Below are positions 1 through 29,081 of a stretch of 35,220 bases of DNA, piece after piece. Origin of the DNA: a virus; the IMG/VR virus record IMGVR_UViG_3300018432_000032, positions 1 through 35,220 of that record, one strand, 5' to 3'. Under the pieces are notes generated by a model. The model was not told the origin of the DNA, did no database searches, and was given only the letters and a program-made list of their open reading frames with translations. A program made the translations under genes and the position numbers. Each line of letters begins with the position of its first letter. Position 1 is the stretch's first letter.

Positions 1-1
1 C

Positions 2-1150
2 AGCACGGCGCAGAAAACCTACGTGGATTTGCAGAGCCGGATCAACCGCAACGCCGAATACGCGCGGCGCTGCGAGTTCCGGGAACGACCCGGCGAACAG
101 GTGATCATCGTCGACGGGACGCGGGCAATCGAGTTCCACGCCCGGTCGGGGAAGCGGGGGCGGGGGTTCCAAGGCGTCAAGCGGCTGACGTTGGATGAGT
201 GGCTGTTCGGGCGGCCGGGCGACCTCGGGGCGTTGGCGCCGACGATCGTCACCATGCCCGACGCGCAGATCCGGTACGCGTCGTCGGGCGGGAAGGTCGA
301 TTCCGGGGCGCTGCGGGACGTCGTCACCCGCGGCAGGGACGGATCCCCGGGGCTCGCGTATGTGGAGCTCGGGGCGCCCCGTGAGCCGTGCGCCGCGGAC
401 GGCGACCAGCCGCCGCTACGGTTCAGCGACTCACGCTGCCGGCACCCGAAGAACGGCGACCCCGCGTGCGCGCTGAACCGCCCCCACCTGTGGTGGCATG
501 CGAGTTCGGGTCTGTGGTCGGGTCGGATCCGTGAGGTCGACGTCGCGCAGCAACGGCAGATGCTGTCCGCGCTCGAGTTCGCCCGCGAGTTCCTGACGTG
601 GCACGAGTTCCCGGAGGAGGACGACGAGGGCGGCGCGTTCGATATCGAACGGTTCGCCGGGCTCGCCAACCCGGACGCGGCGCGGGGTCGGCCCGTCTGG
701 TTCGGGGTGGCGGTGGCCCCTGACAGGTCGTGGTCGGCGGTCGCGTGCGCGTGGCGCCGGCCGGGTGGGGGTGTGCACGTGACGTCTGTCGACTACCGTC
801 CGCATGCATCATGGGTCAAGGATCGGCTAGCGGAGTTGCGTCGCCGCTGGGGCGGGACTGTGATCGTCGATTCGCGGTCGCGGGATCTGATCCCGGATGC
901 GCGGGAACCGGGCGAACAGGATCAGGCGCTTGCCGAGGCGGCACTGTCCGACGCGGTCACCGCGGGCACCCTGTCGCACGGGAACGAGCCGGAACTGTTG
1001 ACGGCGGTGGGGGCGGCGGTGTGGAAGACGTCGGGCGCTCACCGCAGGCTCGAGTCGGCGGGCCGGATCGACGTCAGTCCGGCGCGGGCTGCGGCGTTGG
1101 CGGTGCACGCCGCGTCGTTGGCGACGGACCCGCTGCAACAGGTCTGGTGA
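2..1150 (+). CDS. Terminase large subunit, 5'-truncated by the window edge
   Basis: This is the ATP-driven packaging motor and nuclease that cuts phage DNA and pumps it into the prohead. The frame is open from base 2, so the N-terminus, including Walker A, lies outside the window; 382 residues remain. LTLDEW (around residue 66) fits the Walker B box, and the following MPDAQIRYASSGG fits the coupling motif of phage terminases. The C-terminal half looks like an RNase H-fold nuclease, with acidic residues in GVAVAPD and in TVIVDSRSRD. The portal and capsid genes follow in the usual order. The small subunit is at the far end of the window (33907), which implies a circular or permuted genome. Identity is firm; only the missing part is unknown. 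Confidence 0.9.
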   Translation, partial: STAQKTYVDLQSRINRNAEYARRCEFRERPGEQVIIVDGTRAIEFHARSGKRGRGFQGVKRLTLDEWLFGRPGDLGALAPTIVTMPDAQIRYASSGGKVDSGALRDVVTRGRDGSPGLAYVELGAPREPCAADGDQPPLRFSDSRCRHPKNGDPACALNRPHLWWHASSGLWSGRIREVDVAQQRQMLSALEFAREFLTWHEFPEEDDEGGAFDIERFAGLANPDAARGRPVWFGVAVAPDRSWSAVACAWRRPGGGVHVTSVDYRPHASWVKDRLAELRRRWGGTVIVDSRSRDLIPDAREPGEQDQALAEAALSDAVTAGTLSHGNEPELLTAVGAAVWKTSGAHRRLESAGRIDVSPARAAALAVHAASLATDPLQQVW

Positions 1151-26792: not shown

Positions 26793-26941
26793 CCGCCGAC
26801 CGGCGCCCGCAGCGGCGCGACCCGAATGAGCCGCCCGACGTCGACGGCGAACCCGACCCGGACGTCACCCGCGACGACGTCGCCGCCGAAGCGGACCGGG
26901 CCGCCGACCGCCACGAGCGCGCACTGTGGGGCGACAGGTGA
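26789..26941 (+). CDS. Small acidic linker protein
   Basis: Fifty residues from a GTG overlap. Highly charged (PDVDGEPDPDVTRDDVAAEA) and probably disordered; it carries no motif. The 12 bases around its start, GGCGACCAGTGA, are identical to those at the start of the MazG-like gene (24101-24112). It may serve mainly to couple translation of the VRR-NUC gene. Confidence 0.45.
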   Translation: MTADRRPQRRDPNEPPDVDGEPDPDVTRDDVAAEADRAADRHERALWGDR

Positions 26942-27267
26942 CCGCCGCCCCCGCGCTGTACATGTCCGAGCGGCACCTACAGGAAGCGGTCGTCGAGCTC
27001 GCCCGCCTGCTCGGCTGGATGGTTTACCACCCGTACAACTCGCAGCGCAGTACCCCCGGGTTCCCCGACCTGACGATGGTCCACCCCCGAACGGGCGGGT
27101 TGCTGTTCGCCGAACTGAAAACGACAACGGGCAAGGTCACCCCCGACCAGGACGAGTGGTTGCGGGCGCTCGCGCTCCGGGGGGTCGCGTTCGTGTGGCG
27201 CCCGGTCGACCTGACCGACGGGTCGATCGCCCGCGCACTCCGCAGGTATTCGGCGGCGACGCCGTGA
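26938..27267 (+). CDS. VRR-NUC domain endonuclease
   Basis: A 109-residue stand-alone VRR-NUC protein, a fold of the PD-(D/E)XK nuclease class related to archaeal Holliday junction resolvases. Visible: Glu11 and Glu16 in the N-terminal helix, GFPDLTMVH with Asp44, LLFAELKT with Glu59 and Lys61, then KVTPDQDEWLRAL with Gln71. In phages these proteins resolve branched DNA before packaging. It follows the recombination genes, as expected. The GTG start fits the 4-base overlap. Confidence 0.85.
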   Translation: MTAAPALYMSERHLQEAVVELARLLGWMVYHPYNSQRSTPGFPDLTMVHPRTGGLLFAELKTTTGKVTPDQDEWLRALALRGVAFVWRPVDLTDGSIARALRRYSAATP

Positions 27268-27782
27268 ACCGGCGAACCGCGGCACCCGCACTCGCCGCCG
27301 CGCTCGTCGCGTCCGTCGTCCTCGCCAACTGGTTAACCGCCCGATACGGGCTGATCCCGGCAGGGTTCGGGCTGCTCGTCCCCGCCGGCACCTACGCCGC
27401 CGGGTTGGCGCTCGGGCTGCGGGACGCACTCGACCGGGTCGGCGGGCTGCGGTGGGTGCTCGCCGCGATCGCCGTCGGCATCGCCGTGTCGGCGTGGGTC
27501 GCGTCCCCGATGCTCGCCGTCGCGTCGGCGGTCGCGTTCGGCGCGTCCGAACTCGTCGACCTCGCCGTGTGGCGGGCGACGCTGCGCCGCGGCATCCCGA
27601 CGGCGCTCGCCGCGAGCAACCTTGCGGGGGCGCTGGTCGACAGCGTCCTGTTCCTGTCCCTGTCCGGGCTGGGGCTGACCCTGGTCGCGGTCGGCGGGCA
27701 GCTGCTCGTCAAGGCGGGTTGGTTGACGTTGCTCGCGCTGGTCGTCGTCGCCGCCGCCCGCCGTCGGGCGGTGACCGCGTGA
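27264..27782 (+). CDS. yhhQ: VUT-family (YhhQ-like) queuosine-precursor transporter
   Basis: An inner-membrane protein, 172 residues, about six helices. The VUT family imports 7-deazaguanine precursors (preQ0/preQ1), as shown for E. coli YhhQ. Marks of the family: VVLANWLTARYGLIPAGFGL at the start, RDALDRVGG (53-61) between helices, ASPMLAVASAVAFGASELVD then VDLAVWRATLRR (95-108), and SNLAGALVDSVLFL (118-131). The next gene, one base later, resembles the enzyme that puts such bases into DNA, so transporter and enzyme form a salvage pair. The gene is not part of ordinary phage early modules. Which precursor it carries is not visible. Confidence 0.85.
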   Translation: MNRRTAAPALAAALVASVVLANWLTARYGLIPAGFGLLVPAGTYAAGLALGLRDALDRVGGLRWVLAAIAVGIAVSAWVASPMLAVASAVAFGASELVDLAVWRATLRRGIPTALAASNLAGALVDSVLFLSLSGLGLTLVAVGGQLLVKAGWLTLLALVVVAAARRRAVTA

Positions 27783-28381
27783 TGTACGTCGGCACCCCGT
27801 CGACCCCGACGATCCGGGCCGCCATGTCCGCGGGGCTGCTCGCGTGCATGGACACCCCGCGGCAGCGGAACCTGATCCCGGCCGGCGCGCGGTGGGCCGC
27901 CGACAACGGGGTGTTCGGCGCTGGCTACCCGGGCGACGATGCGTGGCTGTCGTGGCTGCGGGCCCGCACCGCCGACCCGGCGCTGTGCCTGTTCGCGACC
28001 GCACCCGACGTCGTCGGCGACGCGTCGGCAACCCTCGAACGGTCGGCGCCGTTCCTGCCGGCGATCCGCGACGTCGGGCTGCCCGCGGCGCTCGTCGCAC
28101 AGGACGGGCTCGAGGATCTCCCCGTGCCGTGGGACGCGTTCGACGCACTGTTCATCGGAGGAACGACCGAATGGAAGGTGTCACCGGCCGCTGCCGACCT
28201 CGCCGCCCGGGCGCGGGCCCGCGGCAAGTGGGTGCACATGGGTCGGGTCAACAGCTGGAAGCGGTGGCAGGTCGCCGACGCGTTCGGCTGCGACTCGTGC
28301 GACGGCACATATCTCGCCTATGCGCCCGATCTGCTGCTACCCGACGTGCTCGCCTGGTCCGCTCAGGACGCGTTGTGGTGA
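27782..28381 (+). CDS. dpdA: DpdA-like DNA 7-deazaguanine transglycosylase (short TGT-fold)
   Basis: DpdA proteins exchange guanine in DNA for preQ0-type bases. This 199-residue protein fits the short phage type: AADNGVFG with Asp41, a residue position like the TGT general base; FATAPDVVGDA (Asp76) like the base-recognition site; FIGGTTEWK (125-131), a GG loop; and VHMGRVNSWKRWQVADAFGC then DSCDGT, with Asp171 or Asp174 as the likely nucleophile. It lacks the C-terminal zinc domain of tRNA-TGT, as expected. ATG 27782 overlaps the transporter stop by one base. No QueC/D/E, FolE or QueF gene is seen, so the precursor must be salvaged. Confidence 0.8.
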   Translation: MYVGTPSTPTIRAAMSAGLLACMDTPRQRNLIPAGARWAADNGVFGAGYPGDDAWLSWLRARTADPALCLFATAPDVVGDASATLERSAPFLPAIRDVGLPAALVAQDGLEDLPVPWDAFDALFIGGTTEWKVSPAAADLAARARARGKWVHMGRVNSWKRWQVADAFGCDSCDGTYLAYAPDLLLPDVLAWSAQDALW

Positions 28382-28382
28382 C

Positions 28383-28625
28383 CTACTCGCAGCGGTGCCT
28401 CACGAACGGCTCGCACAACCATTCGACCCGGTCGTACAGCGGCCACTCATGCCAGACGACGAGCGCCCGACGCGGGGCGCCGTCCCGCCACCCGTGCAGG
28501 GTGCCGCGGTGCTCACGCAACAGATCGCGGTCGAACAACCAGACCAGCGGCGGCGGGTACACCCGTTCGTGTGCCCGCTCGAGTTCGGCGAGCAGGCGGT
28601 CGCGCCCGTCGTCGGTGAGCGGCAC
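28383..28625 (-). CDS. Hypothetical minus-strand protein, convergent with dpdA
   Basis: Eighty residues from a GTG; TACGGT (28638-28633) lies 7 bases upstream, so this could be a leaderless gene, although no -35 is evident. The protein is rich in Trp, His and Arg: DRLLAELERAHERVYPPPLV, then WLFDRDLLREHRGTLHGW and VVWHEWPLYDRVEWLCEPFV. Its stop lies one base past the dpdA stop on the opposite strand. No family is recognised. Orientation against the operon suggests a separately acquired gene. Confidence 0.5.
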   Translation of the reverse strand: MPLTDDGRDRLLAELERAHERVYPPPLVWLFDRDLLREHRGTLHGWRDGAPRRALVVWHEWPLYDRVEWLCEPFVRHRCE

Positions 28626-28646
28626 ACGTCCGACCGTAGGTGTCCG

Positions 28647-28793
28647 GTGACCGAGCCGCCGCGCGTGGAATGGGTGCCCGGGCAGTTGACGCTCGACGAC
28701 GCGCTGCCACCCGCCGAACAACTGCCGTTGTGGGATCCGCCCGCGGACACGACTGCGCCCCCGCCCGATGATCCGGACGGGGGCGCGACGTGA
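28647..28793 (+). CDS. Small protein between two minus-strand genes
   Basis: Forty-eight residues from a GTG with AGGTG four bases upstream. The sequence is Pro-rich (VEWVPGQLTLDDALPPAEQL, then LWDPPADTTAPPPDD), with LTLDDAL and EQLPLW resembling short linear motifs found at the ends of other actinophage proteins. It is divergent from the gene at 28625 with 21 bases between starts. Real expression is uncertain. Confidence 0.4.
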   Translation: MTEPPRVEWVPGQLTLDDALPPAEQLPLWDPPADTTAPPPDDPDGGAT

Positions 28794-28798
28794 CGCGG

Positions 28799-29029
28799 TC
28801 AGACGGGGTGCACCGCATCCCGCCACGCATCCACCAGACGCGCATGCGCCCGCTCCGCCCGATAGCGGTATGCCTGCACCTGTTCGGCGTCGGCGCCCCG
28901 CCGGACGAGGTTCAGCAGATCCCGCCGCGCATCGGCGTAGAGGCGCCGGGCGAGTTTCACGGCGGGGGGTTCGAGGTCGTCAAGCTGCTGGGCGAGGTCG
29001 GCGATACGGTCGGTGCGGGTGTCGGTCAC
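28799..29029 (-). CDS. Hypothetical helical minus-strand protein
   Basis: A 76-residue protein whose GTG is fixed by the strong GGAGGAA ribosome site seven bases upstream on the minus strand. Entirely helical with charged heptads: DRIADLAQQLDDLEPPAVKL, RLYADARRDLLNLVRRGADA, QVQAYRYRAERAHARLVDAW. A small helical bundle or coiled coil. Transcribed away from the DNA replication region. Function unknown. Confidence 0.6.
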   Translation of the reverse strand: MTDTRTDRIADLAQQLDDLEPPAVKLARRLYADARRDLLNLVRRGADAEQVQAYRYRAERAHARLVDAWRDAVHPV

Positions 29030-29063
29030 GATGGTTCCTCCGGGTGCGGTCGCGGTCGCTGTG

Positions 29064-29081
29064 CGCGTCACACTAGACGCG
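29064..29081 (-). promoter_or_regulatory. Promoter -10 within a 6-bp inverted repeat
   Basis: CGCGTC (29064-29069) and GACGCG (29076-29081) flank ACACTA, which on the minus strand reads TAGTGT (TAnnnT), a good -10 box for the gene at 29029. A repressor bound here would cover the promoter. No good -35 hexamer is visible. The 12 bases GCGCGTCACACT (29063-29074) recur at 32183-32194. Confidence 0.45.

Follow-up and report, generated by a model that had tools for sequence, protein, structure and literature searches.

A putative salvage cassette for 7-deazaguanine DNA modification, composed of a VUT-family transporter and a short DpdA-like transglycosylase, in a phage genome and its relatives

Two adjoining genes in phage record IMGVR_UViG_3300018432_000032 are proposed to serve 7-deazaguanine DNA modification as a salvage cassette, which would act by precursor import, base exchange in DNA, and a consequent block of restriction; we put the probability of this reading at roughly 70%. 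The first gene encodes a putative queuosine-precursor transporter of the VUT/YhhQ family and the second a predicted short DpdA-like transglycosylase. The pair recurs in many phage and prophage loci, and is a conserved cassette and not a chance pairing. In some loci the transporter gene is replaced by genes of preQ0 synthesis, a swap that connects the short enzyme with a 7-deazaguanine as substrate.

Gene organization of the cassette

The window analyzed here is the entire record of 35,220 bp (GC 71.6%), which showed the gene order of a tailed phage (terminase, portal, protease, capsid, and tape measure). The match of the terminase large subunit (window 1-1150) to its 812-position profile began only at position 292; the contig probably starts within this gene, and the genome is probably slightly incomplete. 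The two cassette genes, which the initial annotation had described as directly joined, were found as such (Table 1): the stop codon of the VUT gene and the ATG of the DpdA-like gene overlap by one base (TGATG). The GC contents at the three codon positions (0.77/0.56/0.94 for the VUT gene and 0.71/0.58/0.90 for the DpdA-like gene) were typical of genuine genes in a 71.6% GC genome and, together with strong homology, ruled out chance open reading frames (ORFs).

The upstream operon neighbor is a VRR-NUC-type gene, the stop of which overlaps the VUT start (GTGA). In the related phage Aoka a VRR-Nuc gene is located elsewhere in the genome, and the VRR-NUC-type gene of the window probably lies outside the cassette. 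Two small ORFs on the minus strand (28383-29071) are convergent with the DpdA-like gene, and a PHROG scan of one of them gave no match. The cassette may end the early operon, as proposed earlier: the small minus-strand ORFs do follow it, but a promoter/terminator scan around the cassette gave no signal near the cassette end.

Table 1 Positions of the cassette genes, the upstream neighbor, and conserved motifs of the predicted enzyme in the window.
Feature	Position	Strand	Remarks
VRR-NUC/Holliday-junction-resolvase-like small endonuclease	26926..27267	+	ORF; phrog_93 endonuclease (E 4e-11), phrog_5702 (E 4e-9)
QPTR/VUT (YhhQ-type) queuosine-precursor transporter, putative, 172 aa	27264..27782	+	GTG at 27264, stop 27780-27782
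Short DpdA-like guanine transglycosylase, predicted, 199 aa	27782..28381	+	ATG at 27782, stop 28379-28381
Asp41 (ADNGxF motif)	27902..27904	+	Invariant; counterpart of the TGT DSGGFQ Asp and DpdA DSGAF Asp63 (aligned)
Asp76 (APDVVGD motif)	28007..28009	+	Invariant; aligned with DpdA LDVIGD Asp105
Gly126-Gly127 (FIGG motif)	28157..28162	+	Invariant; aligned with IGG of canonical DpdA
Asp174 (CDSxDGT), predicted nucleophile	28301..28303	+	Invariant; counterpart of the TGT FDC Asp and DpdA Asp206

The VUT-family transporter

The VUT protein of the window would be doubtful if taken alone because its match to PF02592 (residues 80-161, E 1.3e-4) scored 22.8 bits, below the Pfam cut-off of 27.2. The assignment is no longer doubtful because PF02592 matched all 52 aligned relatives, of which 50 also matched TIGR00697 ("queuosine precursor transporter") and 44 the E. 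coli YhhQ model; the PF02592 score was above the cut-off in 31 of 50 records. Thus the PF02592 match, suggested earlier as a check, was positive for the family as a whole and fell below the cut-off for the window protein itself, while the family assignment held at the level of profiles and of the structure model. The window protein also matched phrog_4899 (E 1.8e-31), and its model (pLDDT 95.2) consisted of long membrane-type helices. A search of solved structures by sequence with the VUT alignment gave no match; with the model, the best solved structure found by Foldseek was an ECF S-component (weak, E 0.25).

For members of the QPTR family (YhhQ, COG1738, PF02592), the transported bases are preQ0 and preQ1 in the case of E. 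coli, and queuine in the case of Chlamydia (PMC11130926). The phage VUT gene belongs to this family, whereas the phage copies are divergent and adjoin DpdA rather than tRNA-queuosine genes, and their substrate is putative.

The short DpdA-like enzyme

No family in Pfam or NCBIfam matched the DpdA-like protein, which did match phrog_15826 of "unknown function" (E 4e-79). Its identity to Arthrobacter phage proteins was 60-62%; these proteins, like relatives in Mycobacterium phages, bear the deposited name "DpdA-like tRNA-guanine transglycosylase", whereas names on distant relatives such as "DarB-like antirestriction" were given no weight. An alignment of 56 sequences of the short family (37-63% identity) contained 17 invariant residues, including D41, C69, D76, Q107, G126-G127, H152, G154-R155, N157, and D174, with C69 as the sole invariant Cys. 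The last invariant Asp comes in the same order in the short family (D174), canonical DpdA (D206), and bacterial TGT (D251), a correspondence defined by motif order and barrel strand rather than by residue-level superposition.

The structure model (pLDDT 95.1, pTM 0.91) was an eight-strand (beta/alpha)8 TIM barrel with the invariant residues at or near strand ends. It aligned with TGT structures at Z 13.6-14.0 and an rmsd of 2.8 over 190 residues, a score tied with those of pyruvate kinase and other TIM barrels; structure alone would not decide because pyruvate kinase barrels score as TGT does. The profiles were more discriminating. When the short family was compared with an alignment of canonical phage DpdA (CAjan, Sonali gp87, Rosebush-like, and others), hhalign gave a probability of 95.6% (E 1.1e-8, 90 columns) and paired D41 with D63, D76 with D105, and the two GG motifs with each other. 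Conversely, the canonical DpdA profile retrieved short-family members in six records (E 5e-7 to 2e-4). Among solved structures, the canonical alignment itself gave a weak match (E 0.029) to 7ui4, a DNA-guanine transglycosylase from bacteria. The sole match of the short family to a solved structure by sequence, 2jve (E 0.004), is a small protein that is unrelated; the match spanned 50 residues and was deemed to be due to chance. A TIM barrel of other function, such as an EAL phosphodiesterase or pyruvate kinase, was ruled out by the DpdA profile homology and the gene linkage described below.

Accordingly, both the TGT fold with its Asp, GG, and nucleophile motifs and the DpdA profile match, as proposed in the initial annotation, were upheld, the former by the barrel model and the invariance of the catalytic positions. 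On these profiles and motifs, the product is assigned as a short DpdA-like transglycosylase, and DNA would be its substrate.

A different target deserves consideration. The importer could feed a minimal tRNA-guanine transglycosylase that places a queuosine-type base in host or phage tRNAs, not in DNA, during infection. The TGT fold, the deposited names of many relatives, and the conserved Gln107, which resembles the TGT pattern where canonical DpdA has His, are all consistent with such a role. However, the profile similarity is to DNA-acting DpdA: hhalign found no match between the short family and bacterial tRNA-TGT (probability 0.2%), and the TGT family model PF01702 matched none of the 56 members. 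In addition, the C-terminal zinc-binding Cys/His subdomain of TGT (C291, C294, H304, and H320) has no counterpart, lying beyond the 199-aa end. We consider a tRNA target unlikely, and the linkage and host data below bear further on it.

Linkage of transporter and DpdA-family genes

Among 110 related short-enzyme loci, 67 had a VUT gene. In 55 of them it preceded the enzyme gene at a distance of no more than about 400 nt, and in 46 of the 55 the two genes abutted or overlapped. After restriction to loci with flanks and removal of near-copies at 85%, 73 non-redundant loci remained, and a VUT gene lay less than 2 kb from the short DpdA-like gene in 48 of them (66%). In the reciprocal test, 83 phage loci were gathered by single VUT protein sequences without the use of DpdA, a few of which repeat loci of the enzyme-found set. 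A DpdA-family gene was present beside VUT in 70 of the 83; according to the profiles, 26 had the short form only, 43 canonical DpdA only, and one both. The linkage of phage VUT to canonical DpdA as well is a further argument against a tRNA target.

One of the other 13 loci had QueC and 12 had none of these genes. In at least two of the 12, inspection by eye revealed further DpdA/TGT-like proteins (DSGGY/DSGGF motifs) adjoining the phage VUT (L157, 2908-3699; L164, 1039-1980); neither of the two DpdA profiles, short or canonical, matched these proteins, which possibly represent another DpdA subfamily.

Exchange of the transporter for preQ0-synthesis genes

Several loci carry Que genes at the position of the transporter. 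QueC-QueE-QueD lies directly upstream of the short enzyme in L015 and L016, as does QueD, cut at the contig end, in L017. QueE adjoins the enzyme in L061, L065-L067, and L075, and QueC in L062, while the gene order in L070-L072 is enzyme-QueC-VUT. Over the 73 loci, VUT alone was found in 47, synthesis genes alone in six, both in one, and neither in 19, indicating mutual avoidance (Fisher p 0.0055 at 85% redundancy, a value weakened by the relatedness of the loci). On the tree, the synthesis label required at least six changes, three of which were forced by well-supported branches. That VUT has given way to genes of preQ0 synthesis more than once links the short enzyme to 7-deazaguanine as its type of substrate.

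A third arrangement contains a QueF-family gene, which was located just upstream of the short enzyme in Aoka and eight other loci, and between VUT and the enzyme in eight of these nine. The match exceeded the Pfam cut-off in six of nine tested, and the gene in L004 was matched only by a profile built in this analysis. Most of these genes retain a Cys and, seven residues on, an Asp, which we take to be the spacing of the QueF catalytic pair. The gene in Aoka, gp39 (L235, 29558-29887), is annotated as hypothetical, and its QueF family match is above the Pfam cut-off. Taken together, the linkage to supply genes, their swapping, and the QueF genes tie the short enzyme to 7-deazaguanine more firmly than its fold does. 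Against the cassette reading, about one quarter of the loci lacked both VUT and Que genes in the vicinity; among them is a clade of eight homologs, well supported and mostly from Nonomuraea-type prophages.

Precursor supply in phages and hosts

QueC, QueD, QueE, FolE, QueF, and canonical DpdA were all absent from the window, the left end of which cuts the terminase gene; the earlier statement that synthesis genes are missing therefore holds for this slightly incomplete record. Aoka (36.7 kb), Bunnies (48.8 kb, M. smegmatis), and ReqiPine5 are complete genomes of cultured phages that all carry VUT and the short enzyme. They contained no preQ0-synthesis genes and no canonical DpdA (ReqiPine5 was searched minus its last 1.3 kb). 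A scan of viral contigs for canonical DpdA with Sonali gp87 matched Sonali alone, and the short enzyme was the sole DpdA-family gene found in nearly all records with VUT. The salvage reading, put forward initially on the window alone, is well supported by these genomes.

The initial annotation had also called for a search of the host for synthesis genes. We sampled 24 actinobacterial genomes in which the short gene is present and usually lies within a prophage-like locus. QueC was present in only five of these prophage-bearing genomes and TGT over the cut-off in three, and 18 had neither; because most hosts have neither TGT nor QueC, in most of them the precursor would have to enter from outside the cell. 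VUT was found in 14 of the 24, and in 13 of these 14 a copy was located in the prophage locus of the enzyme itself. The rarity of TGT also argues against the tRNA target, since no queuosine-using tRNA system is evident in most prophage hosts. In Cellulomonas sp. KH9 (L122), QueC of the host is grouped with a VUT gene and a weak TGT-like match at a site apart from the prophage (G049:C2, about 306-312 kb), and this group is perhaps a bacterial 7-deazaguanine cluster.

Loci with additional modification genes

Some relatives carry the short gene in richer surroundings. Arthrobacter phage Sonali (L113) encodes both the short form (gp81) and canonical DpdA (gp87), along with QueC, QueD, QueE, and FolE. 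In Escherichia phage phiG7 the short gene is split (L116, 6881-7473) and a nearby canonical DpdA gene is intact, as if the former were redundant. In L044, L102, and related Nonomuraea/Planotetraspora prophages, the short gene has PAPS-reductase-like or C5-methyltransferase-like neighbors and no VUT; in ReqiPine5 (L115, gp02) the short gene is likewise beside a PAPS-reductase-like or C5-methyltransferase-like gene. Such neighbors may supply further modification chemistry.

These loci bear on a second alternative, in which the short protein is a helper, a transglycosylase of second specificity, or active only with other modification enzymes. In Sonali and phiG7 the short gene coexists with preQ0 pathway genes and canonical DpdA, and in R29Z with preQ0 genes. 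This coexistence could mark a second role, as could the splitting of the short gene into two overlapping ORFs in phiG7 and SHIN8 and the clade, mostly of Nonomuraea-type prophages, without supply genes; the additional neighbors in some Nonomuraea-type prophages also fit this alternative. The invariant catalytic positions, and the status of the short gene as the sole DpdA-family gene in nearly all VUT records, three complete genomes included, argue against this alternative, which we rate somewhat below the tRNA target. It is highly improbable that the pair is idle or serves another small-molecule role, with phage DNA normally unmodified without external precursor: the DNA of Mycobacterium phage Orion, which has DpdA alone, was indeed free of modification when the phage was grown on M. 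smegmatis (PMC6884629), but the invariance of the active-site residues across 37-63% identity, and a linkage that is strong in numerous lineages of phages and in hosts of several phyla, point to selection for the function of the pair.

Discussion

The two family memberships, the conserved catalytic positions, and the linkage of the enzyme to an importer or to preQ0-synthesis genes are computed results, and the salvage cassette is the reading that we build on them. During infection or lysogeny, VUT would import a 7-deazaguanine base into the cell, presumably preQ0 or preQ1 and with lower likelihood queuine. The short enzyme would then excise guanine from phage DNA via a covalent intermediate between Asp174 and deoxyribose, Asp41 and Asp76 would handle the base, and the imported base would take the place of guanine. 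Restriction enzymes that recognize G should then be blocked by the swapped base. DpdA has been reported to insert preQ0 into phage DNA and to confer restriction resistance (PMC6884629). For phages with VUT and the short DpdA-like gene, we found no modified-base measurement in the literature. Phages with the cassette probably disguise their DNA using a scavenged nutrient.

The short family shares with DpdA1 (Rosebush/CAjan/9g type, with FolE-QueD-QueE-QueC) the superfamily by profile, the association with preQ0-supply genes, and the order of catalytic motifs (D-x-G-x-F, DVxGD, IGG, HxxG, and a late Asp). It differs in length (199 aa versus about 250-350 aa), in that no similarity was detected in single-sequence searches, and in that an importer takes the place of precursor synthesis in most cases. 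Bacterial dpd islands (dpdA-K) follow the same DNA-guanine transglycosylase logic, and YhhQ is present in about 9% of them (PMC11888242). The phage pair, in contrast, is a two-gene cassette around which no dpdB, dpdC, or restriction module was seen.

The salvage concept itself is already published. Hutinet et al. in 2019 proposed salvage or host supply for DpdA-only phages and noted YhhQ occasionally, correlated with no phage group (PMC6884629). Their group 3 (Orion and Salmonella 7-11) resembles the present phages in having a DpdA-type enzyme without synthesis genes, whereas here the importer is repeatedly joined to DpdA genes, as seen in both the non-redundant and the reciprocal sets; Orion was absent among the short-family matches. 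Their group 2 encodes FolE, QueD, QueE, and QueC, all four of which are missing from the window and its complete relatives. Within the literature searched, the tight linkage, the supply-gene swapping, the QueF form, and the short family with its partners appear to be new.

More broadly, these data may reflect a widespread, modular form of salvage hypermodification, a generalization to which we give even odds. It would comprise a minimal transglycosylase outside Pfam, supplied by an importer, by an importer with a QueF-type reductase, or by partial or full preQ0 synthesis, in hosts without 7-deazaguanine metabolism. If true, the modular salvage form works without such metabolism in the host, and modification depends on a nutrient from neighboring microbes. 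The idea is directly testable because Bunnies (M. smegmatis mc2 155) and Aoka (A. globiformis), cultured phages of laboratory strains, carry the cassette. Functions are also suggested for the "unknown" families phrog_15826 and phrog_4899, and for gp38 and gp39 of Aoka.

These findings address an open point, namely the source of the precursor in DpdA phages without synthesis genes. The linkage suggests that many such phages import it, in hosts that mostly neither make nor use 7-deazaguanine. If so, the protection of phage DNA would hinge on the chemistry of the surrounding community.
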